64,000 bases of DNA, from assembly GCF_003932715.1 (NCBI RefSeq), contig NZ_CP020700.1:4362501-4426500 (forward strand), written 5' to 3'. Each line of letters begins with the position of its first letter. The first letter of the stretch is position 1. The notes beneath the pieces are model-generated. The model saw only the letters and a list, made by a program, of their open reading frames with translations, did not search any database and was not told where the DNA came from. This stretch comes from Streptomyces tsukubensis. Lineage in GTDB: Bacteria > Actinomycetota > Actinomycetes > Streptomycetales > Streptomycetaceae. Shown piece by piece: positions 30,136-43,759 of the stretch. Position numbers and translations under genes: made by a program.

Positions 30136-30939
30136 TTACATATCGCTGCAGGGGCCCGCATTCCAACGCCGCAGGCGCACCGCACACTGCTCGAAGGAGT
30201 AGAGGAGCAGCAGCAACAGCAGGGCCGCAACGCCGTCTGCCCAGAAGTGGTTGGCCGTGACCACGACGACGGCGATCGTGACCGCTGCGTGCGCGGTGCC
30301 CAGCCATCTCCAGTGACTGCTGGTCAGACGAGCTGCCACCAGGGCCACCAGCAGGCACCAGGCGACGTGGACGGACGGCATGGCTGCCAGTTCGTTGGGA
30401 GCCAGGCCCGCCATGGTTCCGTCGAACATCGACTGGCCGTACTGGACTGCCACGTCGACAAAGCCGTTCTGGGGCAGCATGCGGGGCGGCGCCACCGGGA
30501 CGAACTGGATGATCAGGCACCCCGCGGTCACCAGCACCAGCGCTGTCCAGACGCGGCGAAAGTGATGCTGATGCCGTACAAATACCCAGATCAGCGTGCC
30601 GGCCGTGCCGAGGCCGTGCATGACGGCGTAATAGCGGTTCGCCGCTTTGACCAGCCACGGTCGTGGCAGCACGACCCGCTGCCAGGAAGCCTCGTTCGGA
30701 AAGCCCAGCCGGAGTTCGGCTCGGTGAATCCGGGCCGCGCGGTCCAGAGCAGGTTCCTTTCCGGCCGATGAGAGATGACCGGTCAGCTGCCATACCGAAA
30801 AGAGGCCGAGCACCGTCCCCGCGTCGCACAGAGCTGTGCCGAGCGGGGCAAGACCCGACCGGCGGGCCACCGCGCCGGCCGTGAACAGAACCGCTGCGGC
30901 CCCACCCGTAATCCGCCACGAACGGACCGTACTCCGCAC
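30136..30939 (-). CDS. PAP2-family membrane phosphatase/phosphotransferase (Aur1-like)
   Basis: 267 residues from GTG 30939, chosen for GAGGAG six bases upstream. About six transmembrane helices. Three catalytic blocks are visible: PVAPPRMLP, AAMPSVHVAW (first His) and TANHFWADG (second His, Asp). APPR and PSVH are characteristic of the PAP2_3 branch, which includes fungal inositol-phosphorylceramide synthase Aur1. Such enzymes transfer or remove phospho head groups of lipids at the outer membrane face. In this cluster it could dephosphorylate or decorate the lipid product. Transcribed divergently from the acyltransferase gene. Confidence 0.85.
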   Translation of the reverse strand: MRSTVRSWRITGGAAAVLFTAGAVARRSGLAPLGTALCDAGTVLGLFSVWQLTGHLSSAGKEPALDRAARIHRAELRLGFPNEASWQRVVLPRPWLVKAANRYYAVMHGLGTAGTLIWVFVRHQHHFRRVWTALVLVTAGCLIIQFVPVAPPRMLPQNGFVDVAVQYGQSMFDGTMAGLAPNELAAMPSVHVAWCLLVALVAARLTSSHWRWLGTAHAAVTIAVVVVTANHFWADGVAALLLLLLLYSFEQCAVRLRRWNAGPCSDM

Positions 30940-31078
30940 CGAAAACTCCTCTCTTTGCAGCCGTACCGGTCCCACAGCAGCCTGCAGCCCGGTCCGGTAA
31001 TACTTTGAAATGCGATGCAATTGATGAAGCTGCCGGAATTCTCGACTTGCCGTACCCCGCCATGGGCGAGTGCGCGGC

Positions 31079-31084
31079 TAGGAT
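31079..31084 (+). promoter_or_regulatory. -10-like TAGGAT before acyltransferase gene
   Basis: TAGGAT lies eight bases before GTG 31093. The same bases supply an AGGA ribosome site nine bases from the start, so it may serve either role. Confidence 0.35.
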
Positions 31085-31092
31085 GCCGATCC

Positions 31093-32277
31093 GTGTCCAC
31101 GGTAACCGATATTGCAGCACATCCCGTCACGGTAAGTCCGGTTTCAGGGCGTCGCGGTAAGACCGAGTTCATCCGACTTCCCTATCATCTCTATCGAGGT
31201 GACCCATGCTGGATTCCGCCCCTTGAATACGAACGCAGACAGTTTCTCAGTAGCCGCCATAACCCGTTCTTCAGCTACGGCGAGGTGGGCTTGTTTCTGG
31301 CGCGGCGGGGGCCGCGGATCGTGGGGCGTATCGCCGCAGTCCGTAACTCCCGCTACGAGGAGTTCCAAGGGAAACGCCACGGCTTCTTCGGGCTTTTCGA
31401 ATGCGAGAACGACCCGGAAGCGGCTCGCGCTTTGTTCGACGAGGCCTCGAAATGGTTGCTCCGCTTCGACCTGGAGGCCATGCTGGGCCCGGTTTCTTTT
31501 TCGCTCAACGACGAGTGCGGGACTCTGGTCTCCGGATTCGGCCACCGGCCCATGGTGATGATGTCCTACAACCCGCCGTATCATGATCGGCTGATGAATT
31601 CCTGTGGCTTTTCCAAGGCGAAGGATCTATGGGCCTGGAAGTTTTCCGTCGAAGAGCCTCCTGCTTTTCTGCTGGAGCAGGCGGAGCAGGCTCGGGCCCG
31701 TTCCGGCGTCACCGTGAGGACGCTTGAGCTGCAGAACATGAAGACGGAACTGCCCCGCATGATTGATGTCTACAATTCCGCATGGAAAGACAACTGGGGA
31801 TTTGTTCCCATGACCAGCGAGGAGGTCGAGCGTCACGCCGATCGTCTGCGTCGGGTCATTGAGCCGGAGCTGGTGCTCACCGCGGAGGTGGACGGGGTCC
31901 CCGCCGCCTTCCTGCTGGCTCTCCCCGATGCCAATGAGGCCGTGGCCGCCGCTCAAGGACGGCTGACCCGTTGGGGTGTGCCGATCGGATTTCTGCGGAT
32001 GCTCCGGGCGGCCGGTCGCATCGAGGGCATGCGCATGGCCGCTTTCGGCGTAGCGCCCGGATACCGGAGGCTGGGGCTGGACGCTCTGCTCTACACCGAA
32101 GCATGGCAAGCCGCCCGGCGCCTGGGCTACCGCCGTGCGGAGCTGTCGTGGACCTTGGAAGACAACGCCGTGATCAACCGTGTCACTTCGGCCATGGGCG
32201 GGGAGCGCTACAAGACGTACCGCATCTATCAACGGCCGCTCGGCTCCGTACCGCCGGCACCCGCAGGGCGGTGGTGA
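31093..32277 (+). CDS. GNAT-fold N-acyltransferase, bacterial ceramide-synthase-like
   Basis: 394 residues from GTG 31093. The N-terminal half reads LYRGDPCWIPPLEYERRQFL, NPFFSYGEVGLFLARR, IVGRIAAVRN and GFFGLFEC; the middle has MMSYNPPYHDRLMNSCGFSKAKDL. The C-terminal GNAT core has FGVAPGYRRLGLDALLY (acyl-CoA pyrophosphate loop) and ends with a long helix-strand. I recall this long two-part family from bacterial ceramide clusters, where it N-acylates the sphingoid base; a different acyl-amine substrate is possible. It overlaps the reductase gene by four bases. Base composition is lower in GC than neighbours. Confidence 0.7.
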   Translation: MSTVTDIAAHPVTVSPVSGRRGKTEFIRLPYHLYRGDPCWIPPLEYERRQFLSSRHNPFFSYGEVGLFLARRGPRIVGRIAAVRNSRYEEFQGKRHGFFGLFECENDPEAARALFDEASKWLLRFDLEAMLGPVSFSLNDECGTLVSGFGHRPMVMMSYNPPYHDRLMNSCGFSKAKDLWAWKFSVEEPPAFLLEQAEQARARSGVTVRTLELQNMKTELPRMIDVYNSAWKDNWGFVPMTSEEVERHADRLRRVIEPELVLTAEVDGVPAAFLLALPDANEAVAAAQGRLTRWGVPIGFLRMLRAAGRIEGMRMAAFGVAPGYRRLGLDALLYTEAWQAARRLGYRRAELSWTLEDNAVINRVTSAMGGERYKTYRIYQRPLGSVPPAPAGRW

Positions 32278-33329
32278 AGGTGCGTATCGCAGTCACCGGA
32301 GCCACCGGGTTCATCGGCGGGCGGCTGATCCGGCATGCGGTCCGCCGGGGCGACACCGTGACGGCCCTGGTCCGCCGGCAGTCCGATACGACGGCGCTAC
32401 GGCGTACGGGAGTCGGCGTGCGGGAAGTGGACTGGGCGACGGGCGACGGAATCACCGACGCCATTGCCGACGTGGAATGTGTGGTGCACCTCGCCGGTGC
32501 AACGGCGGCCAGGAATCGGGCGGATTACCTTCGGGGCAACGCGGACACCGCCGCGGTGCTGGCACGTTGCCTGGCCGCACTGCCGGACCCCCCTCGGCTG
32601 GTGCACTGCTCCTCGCTGGCGGCGGCCGGGCCGTCCACGCCGGGCCGGCCCCGCACCGAGGCGGACCCGCCGACCCCGGTCTCCCATTACGGCGGCAGCA
32701 AGCTCGCCGGCGAAGCAGCCGTACGAGCCGTCTGCGAGCGGGTGCGCGTGGTCATCGTCCGCCCGCCCATCGTCTACGGCCCCGGGGACCGGGAGTTTGT
32801 GCCGCGCCTGATTCCTCTGGTGCGCGCGGGCCTTCTGCCCAAGGCCGGAACCGGCCTCCGATGGTATTCGCTGATTCATGTGGACGACTTGGTCCGTGCC
32901 CTGTTCGCTGCGGCAGTTCGCGGTGAGACCGTCCGGAATTCTGCACCTACTTGTGGAACCGGGGTCTATTTCGTCTCGGACGGTCACGAGTACTCATGGC
33001 AGGACATTGCGAAGACAGCCGCGCGGGCTCTTGGACGGCCCACCCCCGTCGTCTTTCCGGTTCCCCTGGCCATGGCGCAGCTTCTGGCCTGCGGAGCGGA
33101 GTTCGTTGCCCGCGCCGGTGGCAGAGTTTCCCTGCTGAACCGCGACAAGGCGCGGGAGATGCGGTATCACGCATGGACCTGCTCGCCGCAGGCAGCGGCG
33201 CGTGAGCTGAACTTCACCGCCGAGATTCCCCTGCTGCGGGGAATCGAGGAACTTATCGGACCCGATGCCGATGAAACGAGACGCAGACGCGGCCGGGTGC
33301 CGAGTGAGCCGAATGACATGTCTTCCTAG
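32274..33329 (+). CDS. NAD(P)-dependent epimerase/dehydratase-type reductase
   Basis: 351 residues from GTG 32274 (GTGA overlap with the acyltransferase stop). Extended SDR: GATGFIGG dinucleotide loop, VHLAGATAA, LVHCSSLAAAG (Ser), YGGSK (Tyr and Lys of the active site), RPPIVYGPGDREF and LIHVDDLVRALF. The 3-ketosphinganine reductase of bacterial ceramide clusters is of this type, so reduction of the 3-keto group made by the oxoamine synthase is the natural proposal. 3-beta-hydroxysteroid-type dehydrogenase activity is an alternative. Middle gene of the plus-strand unit. Confidence 0.82.
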   Translation: MKVRIAVTGATGFIGGRLIRHAVRRGDTVTALVRRQSDTTALRRTGVGVREVDWATGDGITDAIADVECVVHLAGATAARNRADYLRGNADTAAVLARCLAALPDPPRLVHCSSLAAAGPSTPGRPRTEADPPTPVSHYGGSKLAGEAAVRAVCERVRVVIVRPPIVYGPGDREFVPRLIPLVRAGLLPKAGTGLRWYSLIHVDDLVRALFAAAVRGETVRNSAPTCGTGVYFVSDGHEYSWQDIAKTAARALGRPTPVVFPVPLAMAQLLACGAEFVARAGGRVSLLNRDKAREMRYHAWTCSPQAAARELNFTAEIPLLRGIEELIGPDADETRRRRGRVPSEPNDMSS

Positions 33330-33454
33330 GCCGAGTGGACCAACCTCGCCCCCCTGTGCCGTTTCTCCGATGGGGCGCTGCCCAGGGCCCGTACCACTTG
33401 GCCCTACCTTCTTGGATCAGGCCTTCTCCAGCCATGTACGAGGAACGGGACACC

Positions 33455-36400
33455 ATGGATCGCAACCGGAGCGGTTCCGAAGAAATCGCCATTGTGGGTA
33501 TCGCCTGTCGGCTTCCCGGTGGCACAAACAGCCTCGATGAACTCTGGACGGCTCTCGCGGACGGCCGTGACCTGGTCACCGAGGTCCCGCACAACCGGTT
33601 CGACGTCTCTTCCTTCCTCGCCCCCGACCCCCGGCAGCCGGGCAAGAGCTACTCCCTCGCGGGTGGATTCCTCGAAGAGATCGCAGGTTTCGACGCGGAG
33701 TATTTCGGAATCTCGCCGCGAGAGGCCAGTCGCATCGACCCTCAGCAGCGTCTGGCCCTGGAACTGGCCGTGGAAGCCCTCGACGACGCGGCAATCCACG
33801 GCGATGTGCTCAAGGGCTCGGACACCGGGGTTTTCATCGGAGTCGCCGCTCAGCACTACGCGGCTCTCCAGGAACGTGACCCCGCTTCGATGAACGCCTA
33901 CACCATGGCCGGCGGGTCCACGGGGAACACCGCCAACCGGGTTTCCCACGCCCTGGATCTGCACGGGCCGAGCATGGCCGTCGACACGGCTTGTTCCTCG
34001 TCGCTCGTGGCGGTCCACCAGGCATGTCAGGCGCTGCTCGGCGGAACGGGCCGCGTCATGCTTGCGGGCGGAGTCAACGTTCTCCTCAGCCCGCACCACT
34101 TCGTCGGCTTCTCCAAAGCCTCCATGCTGTCGCCGAGCGGCCGCTGCCGGACGTTCTCGGCCGCGGCGGACGGCTACGTACCGGCCGAAGGCGGCGCGGT
34201 CGTGGTGCTGAAGCGCCTGTCGGACGCCCTGGAGGACGGAGACCGGGTCCACGGGGTGATTCTCGGGACCGGCACCAACGCCGACGGGCGCACGAGCGGA
34301 CTCTCACTGCCGAGCGCGACAGCGCAGGAGGCGCTGCTGCGCCAGGTCTACCGGCGGGCCGAGGTAAGCCCTGACGACCTCGCGTACTTCGAGGCACACG
34401 GCACCGGCACCGCGGCCGGTGACCCTGTCGAGTGCGAGGCGATCGGGCGCGCGTTGAGCTGCTACCGCCATAAGGATCTTCCGCTGCCCGTCGGATCGGT
34501 CAAGACCAATCTGGGGCATCTCGAACCGGCTTCGGGCATGGCGGGCCTCTGCAAGGCCCTGCTGGTCCTGCGGGAAAGGGCCATCCCGCCGTCGCTTCAC
34601 GCTGAACCACTCAATCAGGACATCGACTTCACAGGATTGCGGTTGCGCCCCGTAACCGCCGCTCAGCCGATCCACGGCTCCGGCCGTGCTGTCGTGGGCG
34701 TCAACTCCTTCGGATTCGGCGGCGCCAACGCACACGTCGTCCTCGCCGAACCGGCACAAGCCCGGGAGAACCCCCAGCCTCCGCCCAGACGCGCCCTGCC
34801 GATCGTCGTATCGGCCCGCAGCGCGGCAGCGCTTGCCGACGCGGCCGAGCGGATGAGCAGCCATATGCGCGGAATCCCGGCGGAGCGGTTCTACGACACG
34901 TGCCACACCGCCGTTCTCCGGCGGACACACCATGAGCACCGTGCCGTGGTGATGGCCGACGATCCCGGCAGCGCGGCGGCACAACTCGAAGCCCTCGCGA
35001 AAGACGCCCCGGTCTCCGGCACGGCCACCGCCGAGGCCGTGGGCAAGGGGCGCGTGGGGTTCGTCTTCTCGGGCAACGGTTCGACCTGGTCCGGGATGGG
35101 CGCAGATCTCCTGAGCGATCCGGCCTTCCGCACCGGTGTCGACGAGGTGGACTCCGTCCTGTCGCCGCTCCTGGGCTGGTCGGTCGGAGAGCGGCTTGCC
35201 GAACCGCCGGAGGCCGCGCAGATGGAGCGTACGGAATTGGCCCAACCCTTGCTGTTCACCCTTCAGGTCGCCCTGGTGAACATGCTGCGCCGGCAGGGGA
35301 TCGTGCCGGCCGCCGTCATGGGCCACAGCGTCGGCGAGATCGCCGCCGCATACACAGCCGGAGCCATTGATCTCGCGACCGCCGCCGCGGTGGTCGCCGC
35401 TCGAAGCCACTGCCAGGAGGCCACCGCGGGCCTGGGCCGGATGGCGGCCGTGGGCCTCTCCGAGGAAGACGCCGTCAAGGAGCTGTCCGCCTACGACGGG
35501 CTTCTGGAGCTGGCGGCCGTCAATTCCGACAGGGACGTCACCATCGCGGGGAACCGCGAGGCCCTCCGCCAGCTCGAACGGGACCTTACGGCACGGGAGG
35601 TCCCCTTCCGCACGCTCGACCTGGACTACCCATTCCATACCCGGGCCATGGACGTGATCGAGGAGCCGCTCCTGCGCTCCCTCTCCGGGGTGCGCTCCAC
35701 GGCGCCCGGTCCGGCGATGGTGTCCACGGTGACCGGCCGTCTCGTCGAGAGCCGGCAACTGGACGCCGCGTACTGGTGGAAGAACGTCCGTCAACCGGTG
35801 CAGTTCCTGTCCGCGGCCCGCGCCGTGCACGATCTCGGCTGCGACGTTCTGGTGGAGATCGGCCCGCATCCCGTCCTGTCGGGCTATCTGCTCCGGATCG
35901 AACCGCGCGACGAAACACCGGTCGCCGTCGTACCCACCCTCGTCCGCTACGGCGACGGGCCCGAAGCGATGCGCGCCGCAGTGTGCCGGCTCATCGCGTA
36001 CGGAGCCGTAACCGAGTGGGAGGCGCATTTCCCCATCCCGGGGCGCGTGGTCGGCCTCCCCGCCTACCCCTGGCAACGCGAGCGCCACTGGAACGGCGCA
36101 TCCCACTGGTGGTCACCCTACGGTCGCGCCGACCACCCGCTGCTGGGTTCGTCCCTGCCGACAGCGGAGCCGAGCTGGTACGGAATCCTGGACCGCACCC
36201 GTCTGCCCTGGCTGGACGACCACAAGGTCGGGGGCACCACGATCATGCCCGCCACCGGGTATGTCGAAGCGGCCCTCGCCGCCGGCCGACGGGCCCTGAA
36301 CACCGCCGTCGAGCTGACGGACCTGCGCATCACCCGCCCCCTGGCCCTGGCCGATCCGTTCTCCGAGGCAGGATTGCGGGTCTCGGTCTCGGACGAAGAC

Positions 36401-39400
36401 GGTGTGGTACGGATCGCGAGCAGCACCCCGGGCAGCGGGTCCGCCAAGGACGCCCCCGAGGACCCCGGGCAGGAGCATGCCCGGGGACGGGTACGCAGGC
36501 TGTGCGCCGACCGGCCGCGTCCTGTGGACCTGAACGGGATCCGGACCCGACTGACCGGCCGGACGAGCGCGGCGGAACACTACGAAAGGACCGCCCGCGC
36601 CGGCTTGTCCTACGGACCTGCCTTCCAGGTCCTCACCGAACTGGGCCTCGGCGACGGCGAAGTGCTGGCGGCCTACCGTGCGGAGGACCCGGACGAGGCG
36701 TACGGCATCCACCCCGCCGTCCTCGACGGTGCCCTGCAGGCCGGCACCCCGTTGCTGGCGGACTCCGGCGCGCATCAGCCCTTCCTTCCCGTCGCCGTCG
36801 AAGAGGTCCAGCACTGGGTCGGCCCGGCCCGGACCGGCTTCGTACACGTGCGGGCACGAGCGACCGGCTCACGGGAGGTCTGCTGGGACCTGGACGTCAC
36901 CGACGATGCCGGAGAGGTCTCGGTACGGATGCGCGGGGTGCGGCTGCGGCGGGTCGACACCGCGGAGTCCACCACGGCCGACTGCTGGACGACCGTGACG
37001 CGCGCCCTGCCGCCGTACCACGGCCGGCCCTTGCAGCGCAGCCCCTTCCCCACGCCCTCCGCGGTCGTGGACGACGCCGGCACGGCCCTGCTGGAGCCGG
37101 CCGGTGGGCGTCCGTTCGACCAGTGCGTGCGCGCCTTCAGCGAAATGAACGCCCATTTCGCAGCCCGGACCTTCGCAGACCTGCTGCCCGAAGGCGGCAC
37201 TTTCGGCGCCTCGGAGCTCATCGCCGCCGGTGTGCAGCCCCGCTACCGGAAGCTGCTGGACCTGCTGACCGAGCTGACGACGCAGTACGGGTTGACCCGG
37301 CGCATCCACGAAAGCGCCACGGAACCCCGGTTCCGGTTGGCACTCGATCCCCGACCCGACCGCATGGTCCAGCTGGCCGCCGCCCGATTCCCGGACCAGG
37401 CGATCGTCCTGGCCCTGTACACCAGATGCGGAAGGAACCTCGCCGAGGTACTCAGAGGCAGCATCGACGCGCCGGAACTGCTGTTCGGCGACGCGGACCG
37501 CCACCTCATCGAGCAGTTCTACGAGCAGCAGCACGATCTGCGTCTGCACAACTCCTGCGCACAGGCCGTCGTACGCAGCATGATCAGGAACTGGCCTGCC
37601 GGACGTCCGCTCCGCGTACTGGAAGTCGGAGCCGGCACGGGAGGAACAACGGCCTCGGTGCTGCCCGTGCTGCCCGCCGAGAACACCACGTACACCTTCA
37701 CCGACGTCTCCGCCGCCTTCCTGCCCAGAGCCCAGCGGCGCTTCGGCGGCCACGACTTCATCGAGTACCGAACGCTCGACCTGGACCAGCCCCCCGCACC
37801 TCAGGGCTTCCAGACCGCCGGGTACGACCTCGTCATCGCCTCCCACGCCCTCCACGCGGCTCCGGATCTGGCACGCGCCCTCGACCACGTCGGCAGTCTC
37901 CTGGCCGACGGGGGCCTCCTCCTGGCCGTCGAGTGGCACGAGTCCACCCATCTCGCGCCCTGCTTCGGGTTGCTCGACAGCTTCTGGAGCTTCCACGACG
38001 CGCCCCTGCGCACCTCCTCCCCGCTGCTGAGTCCGGCGGAGTGGGAGGCGCTCCTCGGTGACCGCGGCTTCGCCCACCCGGCACGGGTGAGCCGGGAACC
38101 GGACAGCGGCTCCCCCCTCTGCTCGGTGCTCGTCGCACAACGTGACATCAGGGCGGAAGCCCCCGAGGTGCCGCCGCCGGCCGCCGCCGATCGCGACGCC
38201 GCCTGGATCATCGCTGCCGGTTCCCGCGACAGCGATCTCGCCGAAGGCATTCGGAACGCGCTCCTCACCGCCGGACACCTGAGCGCACACCGCACCGCGC
38301 CTCTTGACCAGCCCGACGAGTGGACATCGCTGCTACCCGCCGCGGGCCCGGCGAACATCGTCCTGATCCTCGGGGACGGCGCCCACGACTCCGCTGCCCC
38401 CACCGAACGCGCAGCTGTACGCACCTGTGTGGACCATGCCGCGGTGTTGCGCGCCGCGGCCTCGGCATGCGACGGCCTTCCCGAGTCGGCCACGGCAACG
38501 CTCTGGCTGATCACCCGCCCCTGCGGCGCCCTGCCCGGCCCCGTCCGGCCACTGACCCTCGCAGACGCCGCGACCTGGGGTGTGGCCCGGTCACTGGCCA
38601 ACGAGCACCCCCGGATCGCCGTCCACCAGATCGCACTGGAGCGCGGTCCGGCGGCCGACGAGGACGCACAGCGCCTGTGCCAGGAGCTCCTGGCCGGTTC
38701 GGAAGAGCGCGAGATCGTCCTCACCCACGGTGGGCGTTTCGGCCCCCGGGTCGTCAAACGCGCCGTGTCCGGCCGCAACCGGGACCGGCAGCCCTTCACC
38801 CTTGCCCTGAGAGACCCCGGACCGGGCCACCGGCTCTCCTGGCAGGACATGCCGATGCCCGTACCGGGCCCGGGCCAGGTCGTGATCGAAGTCCGGGCGG
38901 CCGCGCTCAACTACCACGACGTCATGGTGGCCACCGATCTGCTGCCGGCGGGAGCCGAAGGCGACGAGGTGGAACCGAAGCTGGGCCTGGAGTGCGCCGG
39001 GACCATCGCCGCGGTCGGGGACGGGGTCACCTCGCTGGCCCCGGGGGACCGGGTATGCGCCATGGCGGAAGGAAGCCTCGCCTCGCACGTCCTGGTGGCC
39101 GAAGAGCTGACCGCGCCCGTGCCGGCCCGGCTGAGCTTCCCCGAGGCGGCCACCCTTCCCGCGGTCTTCACCACCGTGCACCACAGCTTCGGACGGCTGG
39201 CCCAGCTGCGCCCCGAAGACACCGTGCTGGTCCACTCGGGCGCCGGGGGAGTGGGCCTCGCCGCCCTCCAGTTCGCGCAGGCACACGGAAACCGGATCAT
39301 CGCCACGGCAGGCACACCGGGCAAGCGGGAACTGCTCCACTCCCTGGGAGTCGACCATGTGCTCGACTCCCGCGATCCCGCCTTCGGCGAAGAAGTCATG

Positions 39401-40933
39401 AGAGCCACAGGCGGCCGGGGAGTCGACGTGGTTCTCAACTCCCTCGCGGGTGAGGCCATCGCCCGAGGGCTCGAACTTCTCCGCCCCCACGGCCGGTTCG
39501 TCGAGCTCGGCAAACGCGACATCCACGCCAACGGCCGGATGCTGCTCCGGCCCTTCCGCAACAACCTGGGCTATTTCAGCGTCGACCTCCTGCAGATGCT
39601 GCGCGCAGATCCCCAGCGCTTCGGCTGCCTGCTCACCGAGGTCATGGACCAGGTAGCGGCAGGCACCTACCGTCCTCTTCTGCACCAGACCTATGCGGCC
39701 GCCCGCATCGGCGAAGCCTTCCGCGTACTGCACCGCGCCCGGCACGTCGGCAAGATCGTCATCTCGTTCGACGAGCGGCCGCCGACCGAGCCGTACTCCT
39801 CGTCGTTCCGTCCGGACCCCGAGGGCACCTATCTGGTCACCGGTGGTCTCGACGGCTTCGGAGCCGCCACCGCGGTCCGCCTGGCCGGGCAGGGAGCACG
39901 GCATATCGTGCTGGTGGGCCGCCGCGGCGCGGACACCCCGGGAGCGGACGGACTGCTGCGTACCCTGCGGAGCCTCGGGGCGGAGGCCACCGCCCGGACC
40001 GCGGACGTGACCGACCGCGGAGCCGTGCAGAAGGTACTGGACGCCATCGACGCCACCGGTCACCCCCTGCGGGGCGTGGTCCACGCCGCCATGGTCCTCG
40101 ACGACGCCCCGCTGAAGGAGCTGGACGACGAGCGCTTCTCCGCCGTGCTCGCGCCCAAGGTGCAGGGCGCGCTGGTACTGGACTCGCTGACGCGCGATCG
40201 CGACCTGGACCTGTTCCTCGTGTTCTCCTCGGCATCCTGCCTGATCGGCAACATCAACCAGGCCCCGTACGCAGCGGGCAATCTGTTCCTCGAAGCGCTG
40301 GTCCGTGCCCGCCGCGAGGAAGGGCTGCCGGGTACGGCGGTCGCCTGGGGAGCCGTCACGGACGTCGGCTACGTCGCCCGCAGAGAGCTGACCGACATGA
40401 TGGCGCGCGTCGGCCTCGGAATCATGACCTCCGCCGAAGCGCTGGACATCCTGGAGAACCTCCTTGCCCTGGGCGACGAGGTGACCGTGGTCGGACGGCT
40501 CGACTGGGACGCACTGCGACGGGTCATGCCCGTCCTGCGCACCCCCCGTTTCGCCGGCCTCCTGTCGGCGACGGATACGGCCCGCCGGAGCAGCGACCTG
40601 CGCGAACGACTGGTGGAAGCAGACGGCGAGGAAGCCGCCGCCCTGGTCACCGACACTCTCGTACGGCTGGCCGCCGACGTACTGCGCAGCACACCGGACC
40701 GGATCGACCGCTCCCGCCGCCTGGCGAGCCTCGGCCTCGATTCCCTTCTGGGCGCGGAACTCGCCGTGGTCATCCGGCGCTGCTTCGGCTGCGACCTGTC
40801 GTTGATGGAGGTCCTGACCAGCAGGGATCTCAACGATCTGGCCCACCGCATTCTGTCCCGGGTCGACCGCCGGGGTACGACACCCTCCGACGGACACCCC
40901 GAGCCGGTGAGCAGTTCCCGGGGCGGCCACTGA
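33455..40933 (+). CDS. Highly reducing iterative type I polyketide synthase
   Basis: 2492 residues from ATG 33455 (ATG 33434 possible), one module. KS: Cys180 (DTACSSS), His315 (EAHGTGT), His355 (KTNLGH). AT: Ser625 (GHSVGE), His728 in YPFH, closer to malonyl- than methylmalonyl-specific ATs. DH: His923 (HKVGGTTIMP), Asp1091 (LDGALQ). C-methyltransferase: EVGAGTGG at 1390. ER: SGAGGVG at 1928. KR: TGGLDGFG at 2129, Tyr2272, and LDD at 2215, predicting B-type alcohols. ACP: Ser2430 (LDSL). No thioesterase, docking domain or loading module. Domain order equals fungal HR-PKS. Expected product: a fully or partly reduced, methyl-branched acyl chain built iteratively and released by another enzyme. 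Confidence 0.93.
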   Translation: MDRNRSGSEEIAIVGIACRLPGGTNSLDELWTALADGRDLVTEVPHNRFDVSSFLAPDPRQPGKSYSLAGGFLEEIAGFDAEYFGISPREASRIDPQQRLALELAVEALDDAAIHGDVLKGSDTGVFIGVAAQHYAALQERDPASMNAYTMAGGSTGNTANRVSHALDLHGPSMAVDTACSSSLVAVHQACQALLGGTGRVMLAGGVNVLLSPHHFVGFSKASMLSPSGRCRTFSAAADGYVPAEGGAVVVLKRLSDALEDGDRVHGVILGTGTNADGRTSGLSLPSATAQEALLRQVYRRAEVSPDDLAYFEAHGTGTAAGDPVECEAIGRALSCYRHKDLPLPVGSVKTNLGHLEPASGMAGLCKALLVLRERAIPPSLHAEPLNQDIDFTGLRLRPVTAAQPIHGSGRAVVGVNSFGFGGANAHVVLAEPAQARENPQPPPRRALPIVVSARSAAALADAAERMSSHMRGIPAERFYDTCHTAVLRRTHHEHRAVVMADDPGSAAAQLEALAKDAPVSGTATAEAVGKGRVGFVFSGNGSTWSGMGADLLSDPAFRTGVDEVDSVLSPLLGWSVGERLAEPPEAAQMERTELAQPLLFTLQVALVNMLRRQGIVPAAVMGHSVGEIAAAYTAGAIDLATAAAVVAARSHCQEATAGLGRMAAVGLSEEDAVKELSAYDGLLELAAVNSDRDVTIAGNREALRQLERDLTAREVPFRTLDLDYPFHTRAMDVIEEPLLRSLSGVRSTAPGPAMVSTVTGRLVESRQLDAAYWWKNVRQPVQFLSAARAVHDLGCDVLVEIGPHPVLSGYLLRIEPRDETPVAVVPTLVRYGDGPEAMRAAVCRLIAYGAVTEWEAHFPIPGRVVGLPAYPWQRERHWNGASHWWSPYGRADHPLLGSSLPTAEPSWYGILDRTRLPWLDDHKVGGTTIMPATGYVEAALAAGRRALNTAVELTDLRITRPLALADPFSEAGLRVSVSDEDGVVRIASSTPGSGSAKDAPEDPGQEHARGRVRRLCADRPRPVDLNGIRTRLTGRTSAAEHYERTARAGLSYGPAFQVLTELGLGDGEVLAAYRAEDPDEAYGIHPAVLDGALQAGTPLLADSGAHQPFLPVAVEEVQHWVGPARTGFVHVRARATGSREVCWDLDVTDDAGEVSVRMRGVRLRRVDTAESTTADCWTTVTRALPPYHGRPLQRSPFPTPSAVVDDAGTALLEPAGGRPFDQCVRAFSEMNAHFAARTFADLLPEGGTFGASELIAAGVQPRYRKLLDLLTELTTQYGLTRRIHESATEPRFRLALDPRPDRMVQLAAARFPDQAIVLALYTRCGRNLAEVLRGSIDAPELLFGDADRHLIEQFYEQQHDLRLHNSCAQAVVRSMIRNWPAGRPLRVLEVGAGTGGTTASVLPVLPAENTTYTFTDVSAAFLPRAQRRFGGHDFIEYRTLDLDQPPAPQGFQTAGYDLVIASHALHAAPDLARALDHVGSLLADGGLLLAVEWHESTHLAPCFGLLDSFWSFHDAPLRTSSPLLSPAEWEALLGDRGFAHPARVSREPDSGSPLCSVLVAQRDIRAEAPEVPPPAAADRDAAWIIAAGSRDSDLAEGIRNALLTAGHLSAHRTAPLDQPDEWTSLLPAAGPANIVLILGDGAHDSAAPTERAAVRTCVDHAAVLRAAASACDGLPESATATLWLITRPCGALPGPVRPLTLADAATWGVARSLANEHPRIAVHQIALERGPAADEDAQRLCQELLAGSEEREIVLTHGGRFGPRVVKRAVSGRNRDRQPFTLALRDPGPGHRLSWQDMPMPVPGPGQVVIEVRAAALNYHDVMVATDLLPAGAEGDEVEPKLGLECAGTIAAVGDGVTSLAPGDRVCAMAEGSLASHVLVAEELTAPVPARLSFPEAATLPAVFTTVHHSFGRLAQLRPEDTVLVHSGAGGVGLAALQFAQAHGNRIIATAGTPGKRELLHSLGVDHVLDSRDPAFGEEVMRATGGRGVDVVLNSLAGEAIARGLELLRPHGRFVELGKRDIHANGRMLLRPFRNNLGYFSVDLLQMLRADPQRFGCLLTEVMDQVAAGTYRPLLHQTYAAARIGEAFRVLHRARHVGKIVISFDERPPTEPYSSSFRPDPEGTYLVTGGLDGFGAATAVRLAGQGARHIVLVGRRGADTPGADGLLRTLRSLGAEATARTADVTDRGAVQKVLDAIDATGHPLRGVVHAAMVLDDAPLKELDDERFSAVLAPKVQGALVLDSLTRDRDLDLFLVFSSASCLIGNINQAPYAAGNLFLEALVRARREEGLPGTAVAWGAVTDVGYVARRELTDMMARVGLGIMTSAEALDILENLLALGDEVTVVGRLDWDALRRVMPVLRTPRFAGLLSATDTARRSSDLRERLVEADGEEAAALVTDTLVRLAADVLRSTPDRIDRSRRLASLGLDSLLGAELAVVIRRCFGCDLSLMEVLTSRDLNDLAHRILSRVDRRGTTPSDGHPEPVSSSRGGH

Positions 40934-40961
40934 TCCGGGATCCCGTTGGTGTGCGCGTCGA

Positions 40962-40989
40962 CGGCGGTGGTGCGCAGGCACCACCGCCG
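40962..40989. terminator. Bidirectional hairpin between PKS and oxoamine synthase
   Basis: A perfect 12-bp stem (CGGCGGTGGTGC/GCACCACCGCCG) with GCAG loop in the 114-bp gap between convergent genes. Confidence 0.75.
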
Positions 40990-41047
40990 GACCGTGCGCC
41001 GACGTGCCCCTCAACGGAGTCTCCGCCGGGCGTCCCGGTGGCCGTCG

Positions 41048-42205
41048 CTACCGCAGCGCGGCGAAGGCCGCCACCACTTCGTCGAGGTGTTCCCTGCGCT
41101 GCGTCGCGGTGCAGCTCAGCCGCAGCCGCGCCGATGCGGCCGGTGGAAGGACCGCGTTGACATAGACACCACGGTTCATGAGGTCGCGCCACACGGTGGC
41201 CGTCTGCACCTTGTCCTTCATGGGCACCGGGATGATCGGGGTGGTGGCCGGTGCGCAGGCGTAACCGAGGGCGGCCAGTTCACCGGCGAGGGTACGGGCG
41301 TTCCGCAAGGCGGTGCGCCCCCGCCACGGCTCCTGCCGTGCGACGCGCAGTGCGGTCAGCGCCGCAGCCGTGGCGGCAGGAGACAGCGCCGCACTGAACA
41401 CCATGCTGCGGGCGTGGTGGCGGAGGAAGGAAATCGTCGAGGGGGTGCCGAATACGGCCCCTCCGATCGACGCCAGTGCCTTGCTGAAGGTGAGCGTCAG
41501 GAGATCGACCTCGGCGCGCCCCGCGAAGTGCGCCAGCGTGCCGCGGCCGTCCGCGAGGACGCCCGCGCCGTGCGCATCGTCGAGCAGGACGGTGGCCTGG
41601 TGGTGCCGGGCCACCTCCACCAGTTCGGGCAGCGCGCAGATATCCCCCTCCATGCTGTAGATGCCGTCCAGTACGACGAGACGGCTTCCCTTTCTGCCGG
41701 GTTCGGCCGAGGACAGGGCCGTGTCCAGGCTGTCGGGGCTGTTGTGCCGGAACATGCGCATACGGGACTGCGAAAGCCGGGCGCCGTCCAGGAGCGACGC
41801 GTGGGCGTACTGATCGAAGAAGATGACGTCGTCCGGCCCGCACAGGCCGCTCATGACACCGAGATTTGCCTGGTAGCCGGTGGCGAAGACCAGAGCGGCA
41901 GGCATCCCGAAGAAATCTGCGAGTTCCCGTTCGAGTTCCTCGTGGAGTTCCAGTGAACCGTTGAGGAGTCGGCTGCCGGTGAGGGAGGATCCATAGGTGA
42001 GCGCCGCGTCACTGGCCGCTCTGACGACGCGATCGTCGTGTGCGAGCCCGAGGTAGTTGTTGCCCCCGAACATCAAGGCGGATTTTCCGTCGACCTCGCA
42101 GACGTCCGCCGCCATATGCTGCCAGGCGGTATAGAACGGATACAGGCCCAGCTCCTGCGCCACCTGCGGCAGGTTGAACTTCTCGCATTTGTCCAACAAT
42201 GCCAT
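41048..42205 (-). CDS. Alpha-oxoamine synthase, serine-palmitoyltransferase-like
   Basis: 385 residues from ATG with AAGGAGC upstream. PLP fold type I: His135 (YAHAS, cofactor stacking), DDAHG (Asp210, His212) and Schiff-base Lys242 (TFSKALASIGG). The segments LTGSRLLNGS, ATGYQANLG, FRHNS and GIYSMEGDI recall Sphingomonas serine palmitoyltransferase more closely than BioF or KBL. It should condense an acyl thioester with serine (or alanine/glycine) with loss of CO2, giving a 3-keto-sphinganine-like product and releasing the chain from its carrier. Third gene of the ACP-KAS-oxoamine synthase operon. A BioF role is unlikely: no other biotin gene is present. Confidence 0.87.
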   Translation of the reverse strand: MALLDKCEKFNLPQVAQELGLYPFYTAWQHMAADVCEVDGKSALMFGGNNYLGLAHDDRVVRAASDAALTYGSSLTGSRLLNGSLELHEELERELADFFGMPAALVFATGYQANLGVMSGLCGPDDVIFFDQYAHASLLDGARLSQSRMRMFRHNSPDSLDTALSSAEPGRKGSRLVVLDGIYSMEGDICALPELVEVARHHQATVLLDDAHGAGVLADGRGTLAHFAGRAEVDLLTLTFSKALASIGGAVFGTPSTISFLRHHARSMVFSAALSPAATAAALTALRVARQEPWRGRTALRNARTLAGELAALGYACAPATTPIIPVPMKDKVQTATVWRDLMNRGVYVNAVLPPAASARLRLSCTATQRREHLDEVVAAFAALR

Positions 42206-42236
42206 CGGAGCTGCTCCTTAACGCCGCTCGGTGGAA

Positions 42237-43460
42237 TCAGGCGACATGGAACACAAGAGCAGCATTCTGTCCCCCGAATCCGAAGGAGTTGGTGAGGGCG
42301 GCATCCATGGGGGTCTCTCGTGGTTCCTTGCTGACGATATCAAGGTCGATTTGCGGATCCGGCGAGTCGAGATTGGCGGTCGGCGGAATGGTCTGCCGTT
42401 CCAGTGTCAGTACCGTATGCACGGACTCGATGGCGCCGGCACCGCCGATCGCGTGACCGAGGAGGCTCTTGTTCGCGCTCACCGCCGGCGGTCTGCCGAA
42501 CACGTGGTGCAGTGCGTGGAACTCGGCCAGGTCGTTGAGCGGGGTGGACGTGCCGTGGGCATTGATGTGGTCGATGTCCTCGGGGGCCAGGGCGGCGTCC
42601 CGCAGTGCCGCTTGCATGGCTTCGGCGGCGCCGCGGCCGGCCGGGTGCGGCGCCGCGAAGCGGTAGGCGTCGCAGGAGGCGCCGTAGCCGGCCAGATAGG
42701 CCCGCGGTCTCGCCCCGCGTCCGAGTGCGTCACGGGGCCGTTCCAGGACCAGGACGCCGGCCCCCTCGCCGAGGACGAAGCCGTCTCTGTCCTGGTCGAA
42801 CGGGCGGGAGGCGCCAGCCGGATCACGGGTGCGCCCGGAGAGCGCGCCCATCTGCCCGAAAGCGGCCGAACAGATGCGGTTGCACGCCGATTCCGCTCCC
42901 CCCGCGATGGCGATGTCGCAGCTGCCGGCCCGCAGAAGGCCGAGGGCGACGCCGATGGCCGTGGCGCCTGAGGCGCAGGCCGTGGAGACGCCGAAGTTGG
43001 GGCCGCGCGCTCCCAGGTCCATGCCGATCTCTCCGGCCGCCATGTTCGGCACGCTCCGGGTGATGGCCAGAGGCGAGACCTTCTCAAAGGCGCCGACCTT
43101 GATGTGGCCCACTTCTTTTTCATAATGGTCGTAGCTGACGCTGCCGACTCCGATGACGACCGCGACGCGCTCCGCATTCCAGCGGGCCGGATCCCATCCG
43201 GAGTCGGCCACGGCTTCACGTGCCGCCGTCACCGCGAGTTGTGTTCCCCGGTCCAGGCGCCAGGAGAGTCGTCGTCCGAGAATCGCATCGGCGTCGAAGT
43301 CCGGGACCCTGCAGCAGAAGTCCACGGGCAGACCCGCCAGGGCGGCGTCCGTCGCCGCACGGCTTCTTCCGGTCAGCAGGCCGTCCCAGGCGGCTGTGAC
43401 ACCGATACCCGCCGGTGTCACCAGTCCGATTCCGGTTACGGCCGCCGACGTTTCGGTCAC
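42237..43460 (-). CDS. KAS II-type beta-ketoacyl-ACP synthase
   Basis: 407 residues. Catalytic triad Cys162 (STACASGA), His302 (NAHGTSTPLND) and His336 (NKSLLGHAIGGAGA), with Lys331. The FabF-type decarboxylative condensation chemistry is intact. It starts at ATG 43460 overlapping the ACP stop. A dedicated condensing enzyme with its ACP could extend a primer or a long chain before transfer to the oxoamine synthase, or prepare the N-acyl chain. No matching ketoreductase, dehydratase or enoyl reductase is encoded here, so it must borrow primary FAS enzymes or perform a single extension. Confidence 0.9.
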   Translation of the reverse strand: MTETSAAVTGIGLVTPAGIGVTAAWDGLLTGRSRAATDAALAGLPVDFCCRVPDFDADAILGRRLSWRLDRGTQLAVTAAREAVADSGWDPARWNAERVAVVIGVGSVSYDHYEKEVGHIKVGAFEKVSPLAITRSVPNMAAGEIGMDLGARGPNFGVSTACASGATAIGVALGLLRAGSCDIAIAGGAESACNRICSAAFGQMGALSGRTRDPAGASRPFDQDRDGFVLGEGAGVLVLERPRDALGRGARPRAYLAGYGASCDAYRFAAPHPAGRGAAEAMQAALRDAALAPEDIDHINAHGTSTPLNDLAEFHALHHVFGRPPAVSANKSLLGHAIGGAGAIESVHTVLTLERQTIPPTANLDSPDPQIDLDIVSKEPRETPMDAALTNSFGFGGQNAALVFHVA

Positions 43461-43759
43461 CGCCCCGTTCCTGCCGCGGTTCCTGTCTGCTCGGGGTCGG
43501 CGGTGGCGATTTCCTCGGCGCTGTCTGCGGCTGCGTCGCGAATGATGTGGTCCAGTGCGGTTGCGGTCTCACCGAGTGTCGACGCCACACCGACATCGGA
43601 CAGTTGGTGTCCAGTGCGCTCCTGTACGATCAGGCCGAGTTCGACGAGGGCCAGTGAATCCACTTCCAGCTCTTCAAAGGTGGCATCGGGTCGCATCCGA
43701 TGCTCGTCCAGACCGAATGTCTCGGTCAGTGTTTGTACGATCAGCTGGTAACTCTCCAC
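43457..43759 (-). CDS. Acyl carrier protein
   Basis: 100 residues from GTG 43759. Helix II contains the phosphopantetheine site Ser35 in EVDSLALVEL. The first 78 residues match a standard ACP; the last 20 are an Ala/Thr/Glu tail. First gene of the minus-strand operon. Bacterial serine palmitoyltransferase genes are often next to a dedicated ACP, so acyl-ACP is the likely thioester substrate. The ribosome site (AGGTG) is weak. Confidence 0.9.
   Translation of the reverse strand: MESYQLIVQTLTETFGLDEHRMRPDATFEELEVDSLALVELGLIVQERTGHQLSDVGVASTLGETATALDHIIRDAAADSAEEIATADPEQTGTAAGTGR

Follow-up and report, generated by a model that had tools for sequence, protein, structure and literature searches.

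A seven-gene island of Streptomyces tsukubensis joins a one-module polyketide synthase to ceramide-type genes

A discrete insertion between Tad-pilus and helicase genes

The window analyzed here, a 64,000-nucleotide stretch of Streptomyces tsukubensis (contig NZ_CP020700.1, positions 4,362,501 to 4,426,500), carries seven open genes at 30136-43759, which code for a PAP2-type membrane protein, a GNAT-fold acyltransferase, a short-chain dehydrogenase/reductase (SDR), a polyketide synthase (PKS), an alpha-oxoamine synthase (AOS), a FabF-type ketosynthase (KAS II), and a stand-alone acyl carrier protein (ACP). The first-pass annotation had described such a cluster and interpreted it as a polyketide-fed ceramide pathway; its observation is confirmed by the open frames and their Pfam classes, and its interpretation is partly supported by what follows. 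The features are:

30136..30939, minus strand: PAP2_3 membrane protein (Pfam PAP2_3), Aur1/inositol phosphorylceramide (IPC) synthase-like, a possible head-group phosphotransferase
30940..31092, no strand: divergent intergenic stretch between the PAP2 and GNAT genes, a probable promoter region by the revised starts
31093..32277, plus strand: tandem-GNAT N-acyltransferase, bacterial ceramide synthase family (bCerS/CerS/Aca; YghO), by YghO homology, AOS neighborhood, and fold
32271..33329, plus strand: ceramide reductase-like (CerR/epi) extended SDR, by Pfam Epimerase and the SDR of the E. coli locus
33335..40933, plus strand: one-module, fully reducing, C-methylating PKS, presumed iterative, by Pfam domains, motifs, and the Planobispora takensis PKS
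41048..42205, minus strand: AOS, serine palmitoyltransferase (SPT)-like, by PDB matches, tree, and approximately unbiased (AU) tests
42237..43460, minus strand: KAS II, by Pfam, NCBIfam, and neighborhoods
43457..43759, minus strand: stand-alone ACP, by Pfam PP-binding (8.2e-8) and a DSL serine motif

The PAP2 gene diverges from the GNAT, SDR, and PKS genes, which run in one direction and almost abut, and the ACP-KAS-AOS row is transcribed toward the PKS. The PAP2 frame reaches 31020 with a TTG start, and its overlap with the GNAT frame arises only from listing each frame at its longest; the homologs are probably better fitted by starts near 30939 (PAP2) and 31093 (GNAT). No sigma-70-like match was found in the intergenic stretch thus delimited, and promoter and terminator scans of the window gave chance-level results only.

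The island is flanked by Tad-pilus genes on one side and the gene for an MrfA-type helicase on the other. The spacing between these flanks is ~13.9 kb in the window, occupied by the seven genes, as against 0 to ~6.4 kb in all five relatives read out of the 11 having the helicase, and the GC content dips to 0.64 at 30.5-32.5 kb, compared with 0.73-0.77 across the Tad stretch. The island is thus a discrete, clean seven-gene insertion. The window contains no tRNA and the island ends share no 10-mer, so the mechanism of insertion was not found.

The ceramide-type core

The GNAT (ACYLTRANSFERASE) aligns over almost its full length with YghO of an Escherichia coli plasmid record (128/385 residues identical, 33%; E 3e-65), whose locus also encodes an AOS, an ACP, an SDR, an acyl-AMP ligase, and LptF/LptG. 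This supports the earlier assignment of the acyltransferase to the ceramide synthase kind and rules out an unrelated acetyltransferase; the Pfam match is weak on its own (4.8e-6), and the structure model has a tandem GNAT fold (pLDDT 86). The yghO gene of E. coli BL21 is grouped with CC_1154 among the N-acyltransferase genes (aca) of dihydroceramide synthesis, according to a figure legend (Fig. 9; PMC9386255). A Roseomonas plasmid carries a gene set similar to the five-gene E. coli ceramide locus, and the accessible text of PMC11324152 presents a Caulobacter region comparable with it. By homology, the island GNAT is a member of the bacterial ceramide synthase family and is predicted to N-acylate a sphingoid base.

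At least 557 loci are confirmed matches to the GNAT profile. Of the 80 best, 54 have an AOS no more than 3 kb away, 47 have an SDR no more than 6 kb away, and 42 have the two together; the 26 loci with no AOS that close include several on short contigs. The AOS-GNAT-SDR association is beyond chance. Myxobacterial GNATs (L077, L080, L081, L084) are 48-53% identical to that of the window, equaling or exceeding most Streptomyces GNATs, which hints at an exchange of this gene between myxobacteria and actinomycetes.

The SDR had been taken for a classical 3-ketosphinganine reductase (KDSR), a reading we reject, as its Pfam match (Epimerase, 6e-35) is of the extended epimerase type. Its place in a ceramide set nonetheless holds up, in that it is homologous to the SDRs of the E. 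coli ceramide locus (31%, E 9e-31) and of the Roseomonas locus (31%, E 8e-27), a likeness that is weak evidence by itself because extended SDRs form a wide superfamily.

The AOS (Pfam Aminotran_1_2, 5.7e-50) is SPT-like by several sequence comparisons. It has 54 PDB matches, and the first ten places go to SPT entries (best 1.2e-86), some of which are variants of a single protein. It scores 240 bits against the AOS that occupies the SPT position in the E. coli locus, versus 181 for K-12 KBL and 177 for K-12 BioF. A quick tree was built from 62 rows, each the best tblastn piece (stops written as X, pieces below 60% of the query length dropped); in it the enzyme is sister to the AOS of genome G034 (support 99) within a 44-row group (support 88) that includes SPT 3a2b and most AOSs found beside ceramide GNATs; SPTs 2x8u and 2jg2 fall just outside this group on a weak branch, with KBL and BioF farther off. 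The first-pass annotation had named a grouping with BioF or KBL as the check on its SPT-like claim, and both forced groupings are rejected by AU tests (KBL, p 0.0009; BioF, p 0.027), placing the enzyme on the SPT side. We call it SPT-like and do not file it as an SPT because none of the 14 NCBIfam models listed reaches its cut-off, the best being SerpalmtaseCFB with 373.9 bits versus a cut-off of 640.

The AOSs of three other clusters (L184, L076, L082) form a separate lineage, to which joining the island AOS is disfavored (p 0.0144). The island looks mosaic in ancestry, since its AOS stands apart from this lineage although the nearest GNATs are those of L076 and L082. The nearest AOS found, 54% identical, belongs to G034 (L039/L218), in a row that encodes a classical SDR, a C-A-T non-ribosomal peptide synthetase (NRPS), a KS-ACP-thioesterase protein, aldehyde and acyl-CoA dehydrogenases, and a class-III aminotransferase, and is apparently devoted to a different oxoamine-synthase natural product.

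Chain-building proteins and a candidate head-group enzyme

The claimed one-module reducing PKS is indeed a single 2532-aa protein with the Pfam domain order KS-AT-DH-MT-ER-KR-ACP and no Pfam match to a thioesterase. Each domain keeps its sought catalytic motif, and the AT carries YPFH, which is nearer the malonyl-type HAFH than the methylmalonyl-type YASH. With no other modules in the island, the PKS is presumed to be iterative. The KAS II has a Pfam KAS match of 6.9e-48, with which NCBIfam agrees.

The PAP2 protein (Pfam PAP2_3, 1.1e-38) conserves His191, His231, and Asp235 across all ten aligned rows; these are presumably its catalytic residues. The earlier Aur1-like label stands as to the domain and the invariant His-His-Asp set; as to the fold, the structure model has IPC synthase/Aur1 as its best match, short of full confidence. 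The protein may be a head-group phosphotransferase. Its relatives in Streptomyces are 29-40% identical, and among all the ceramide-GNAT neighborhoods read a PAP2 match is absent except from L184, where a 62% match stands beside KAS and ACP genes. We initially favored a chance neighbor and dropped this view given the L184 match and the insertion boundaries, for which reasons the gene is counted as an island member; its neighborhood support for membership in the pathway is this one cluster.

Recurrence of the gene set and the source of the acyl chain

The GNAT is present in 21 of 392 Streptomyces genomes, that of the window included (E 1e-20). In the Streptosporangiaceae, the family of P. takensis (G912), it occurs in 11 of 250 genomes (E 1e-40), and a class-wide draw, overlapping with both sets, has it in 7 of 394. 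Its surroundings were read over 15-20 kb at 21 places in the 20 remaining Streptomyces genomes and in ten of the 11 Streptosporangiaceae. Besides the window, two of these ten have a PKS of the island type beside AOS, GNAT, and SDR genes, namely P. takensis (L091/L210) and G1174 (L223), both with AOS-GNAT-SDR-PKS in a single co-directional row. Their PKSs share 81% identity with one another and 49% with the island PKS (the G1174 frame extends upstream of the gene), which the P. takensis protein matches in architecture and length. Twelve other PKSs are 48-52% identical to the island PKS (the frame of one row, L198, is wrong in this comparison), and no AOS or GNAT match was found at their loci or at a thirteenth, which lies on a short contig; of these 13, twelve are from the same genus as the window and one is from a different genus in its family. 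Four further Streptomyces loci with distant GNATs of 27-33% identity (L185, L215, L216, L217) have other PKS pieces nearby and no AOS match in their neighborhoods. A single origin of the PKS-ceramide pairing is rejected for the AOS (p 0.000188, for a group named after the tree was seen) and not rejected for the PKS (p 0.318, with L198 excluded); an independent origin in two families is not established.

These data bear on whether the seven genes form one pathway at all. No second whole seven-gene set was found in the neighborhoods read, as might be expected of neighbors without a joint pathway or of a silent relic cluster. We nevertheless regard this as very improbable, given that all seven frames are open with their sought motifs, that the insertion contains exactly these genes, and that the AOS-GNAT-SDR-PKS set recurs in two other genomes. 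They also bear on the kind of product. A match to the PKS MT region (E 1e-30) occurs in 125 of 391 genomes of the order, many of the better ones in frames near 2500 aa; the commonness of such PKSs, the NRPS cluster around the nearest AOS relative found, and the rarity and inserted nature of the gene set would all suit a secreted secondary metabolite resembling a sphinganine, either a free amino alcohol or its N-acylated form and perhaps built on an amino acid other than serine, in place of a membrane ceramide. This appears improbable to us, though less so than the preceding alternative, as the GNAT and SDR families are those of ceramide operons across many phyla and the island includes a head-group-type enzyme.

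In L076 and L082, with the nearest GNATs, and in L184, which shares the PAP2 gene, an acyl-AMP ligase gene precedes that of the AOS, with an ACP gene in L082 and L184. Pfam finds no such ligase among the seven island proteins, and our reading is that the PKS took over as the acyl source. The gene layout allows it to feed either the AOS or the GNAT; we read it as feeding the AOS because the ligase is missing and because there is a precedent in SgaAB of Pseudomonas fluorescens MYb115, where the chain made by the PKS goes to the AOS, as described in the text available to us (PMC12134224). Weighing against this choice, the polyketide could be the N-acyl chain: the AOS would then use an ACP-held fatty chain extended by KAS II, and the GNAT would attach a methyl-branched polyketide as the amide chain of what would still be a ceramide. 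The co-directional, abutting GNAT, SDR, and PKS genes, with ACP, KAS, and AOS in the other row, fit such an arrangement, as does the presence of KAS and ACP matches with ceramide genes in Streptomyces loci without a PKS of the island type, such as L046, L048, L213, and L214. Of the 21 other Streptomyces neighborhoods, 11 have a KAS match close to the GNAT. Against it speak the position of the PKS, which is that of the ligase in related clusters, the SgaAB precedent, and the two Streptosporangiaceae PKS clusters, in which the stretch read has no match to the island KAS or stand-alone ACP and the scanned neighbors (four in L091, three in L223) include no ligase. On balance, we consider the N-acyl role of the polyketide unlikely, if far from negligible.

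Other loci have further kinds of acyl-chain genes beside ceramide-type ones. In L220, two ketosynthase matches, accompanied by an acyltransferase, abut the GNAT, with an AOS nearby and an MMPL transporter following, and in L222 a single ketosynthase match abuts the GNAT, again with an AOS nearby. A Kribbella antibiotica locus (L092:24-20142) has a ceramide-synthase-like GNAT beside FabA-rich proteins resembling polyunsaturated fatty acid (PUFA) synthases and an AOS that carries fused ketosynthase, reductase, and dehydratase portions. A Myxococcaceae metagenome-assembled genome (L093:3-11161) encodes a PKS-AOS fusion with an acyl-AMP ligase, an SDR, and a GNAT, which is another PKS plus ceramide-type set. 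MMPL-family transporters, of which there is none among the seven island genes, are encoded near ceramide genes in L076, L185, and L220 and are possible lipid exporters.

A proposed pathway

We lean, with a modest degree of confidence, toward the view that the island specifies a ceramide-type lipid pathway in which the sphingoid chain is made by the PKS. This enzyme, with no thioesterase, would act iteratively with full reduction and possible C-methyl branches. The SPT-like AOS would receive the chain directly from the PKS carrier domain or through the stand-alone ACP and condense it with an amino acid, serine being the likeliest, to a 3-keto sphingoid base. The GNAT would attach a second acyl chain to the amine and the CerR-like SDR would reduce the 3-keto group; in Caulobacter, acylation is argued to precede reduction, according to the accessible part of PMC11087976. 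The Aur1-like PAP2 protein might then use a phospholipid as the donor of a phosphorylated head group for the ceramide, with KAS II and the ACP preparing or holding one of the acyl chains.

A bolder version, advanced only tentatively, is that this is a self-contained polyketide-ceramide pathway whose C-methyl-branched base is N-acylated, reduced, and given an Aur1-like cap to yield an undescribed type of phosphosphingolipid, and that two families arrived at the PKS-ceramide pairing with AOSs of separate lineages and a distinct head-group-type enzyme apiece (PAP2 in the island and a sulfatase/LtaS-type one in the Streptosporangiaceae). If the proposal is right, two bacterial routes, that of PKS-made sphinganines and that of the ceramide set, are united in one small island, branched ceramide lipids are predicted in a Gram-positive genus, and a candidate head-group enzyme is at hand. 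It would also suggest that the acyl-supply step of ceramide operons is exchangeable between ligase and ACP, ketosynthases with an acyltransferase, PUFA-synthase-like proteins, and a PKS. The island is small enough to be cloned whole.

Relationship to known systems

The PKS SgaA and AOS SgaB of P. fluorescens MYb115 make C24-C28 sphinganines, most likely leading to phosphoglycerol sphingolipids, SgaB shows an almost exclusive preference for serine when compared with alanine and glycine, and 6101 homologous clusters are counted in the portions of the 2025 report available to us (PMC12134224). As in that system, a one-module PKS (33335-40933) adjoins an SPT-like AOS (41048-42205) in the island. 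The SgaAB system, known to us by description only, is presented in those portions with two core genes and a KDSR-like SDR and no bCerS- or CerR-type gene (PMC12134224), whereas the island adds bCerS- and CerR-type genes, the Aur1-like enzyme, KAS II, and the ACP; we do not file it as an SgaAB cluster because its only separate SDR is epimerase-type. With the aasR, acpR, spt, epi/cerR, and aca/cerS genes of Caulobacter crescentus and E. coli BL21, as far as the consulted text of their reports goes (PMC9386255, PMC11087976, PMC11324152), it shares homologous SPT-, N-acyltransferase-, and reductase-type proteins, a comparison made via the E. coli plasmid copy and the Roseomonas locus. In those bacteria AasR loads a fatty acid onto AcpR, per the excerpts of PMC9386255, whereas in the island the PKS would replace the ligase.

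Closer to home, Streptomyces megasporus (L098, AOS-GNAT-SDR) and S. aurantiacus (L094, AOS-GNAT) have core genes of the island, partly with ACP and KAS, and no PKS of the island type or PAP2 match in the stretches read. The P. takensis and G1174 clusters resemble the island in having AOS, GNAT, SDR, and a large PKS together (its domain order scanned in Planobispora); they differ in their one-directional row, in a sulfatase-family neighbor in place of PAP2, and in an AOS on a different branch (p 0.0002). In fungal fumonisin-type pathways, a reducing, C-methylating PKS makes a chain that is released by an AOS, and the product is a free sphinganine analog; the island is like them in its reducing, C-methylating PKS and AOS. 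The fungal reductase is of the KDSR type according to the available text of PMC12134224.

The claim of novelty in the first-pass annotation has to be narrowed, in that PKS- and AOS-made sphinganines were already published with SgaAB and, as the same partly available source relates, Actinobacteria with bacterial ceramide genes had been reported earlier (PMC12134224). What stands is that our searches, which covered open-licence PMC text, turned up no report of an iterative PKS together with a complete SPT-bCerS-CerR set. Since PKS-made sphinganines and bacterial ceramide genes are both on record, the island is a new variant of bacterial sphingolipid synthesis and not a wholly new kind, its distinction being that a PKS and a ceramide set are encoded together with what may be a head-group enzyme.

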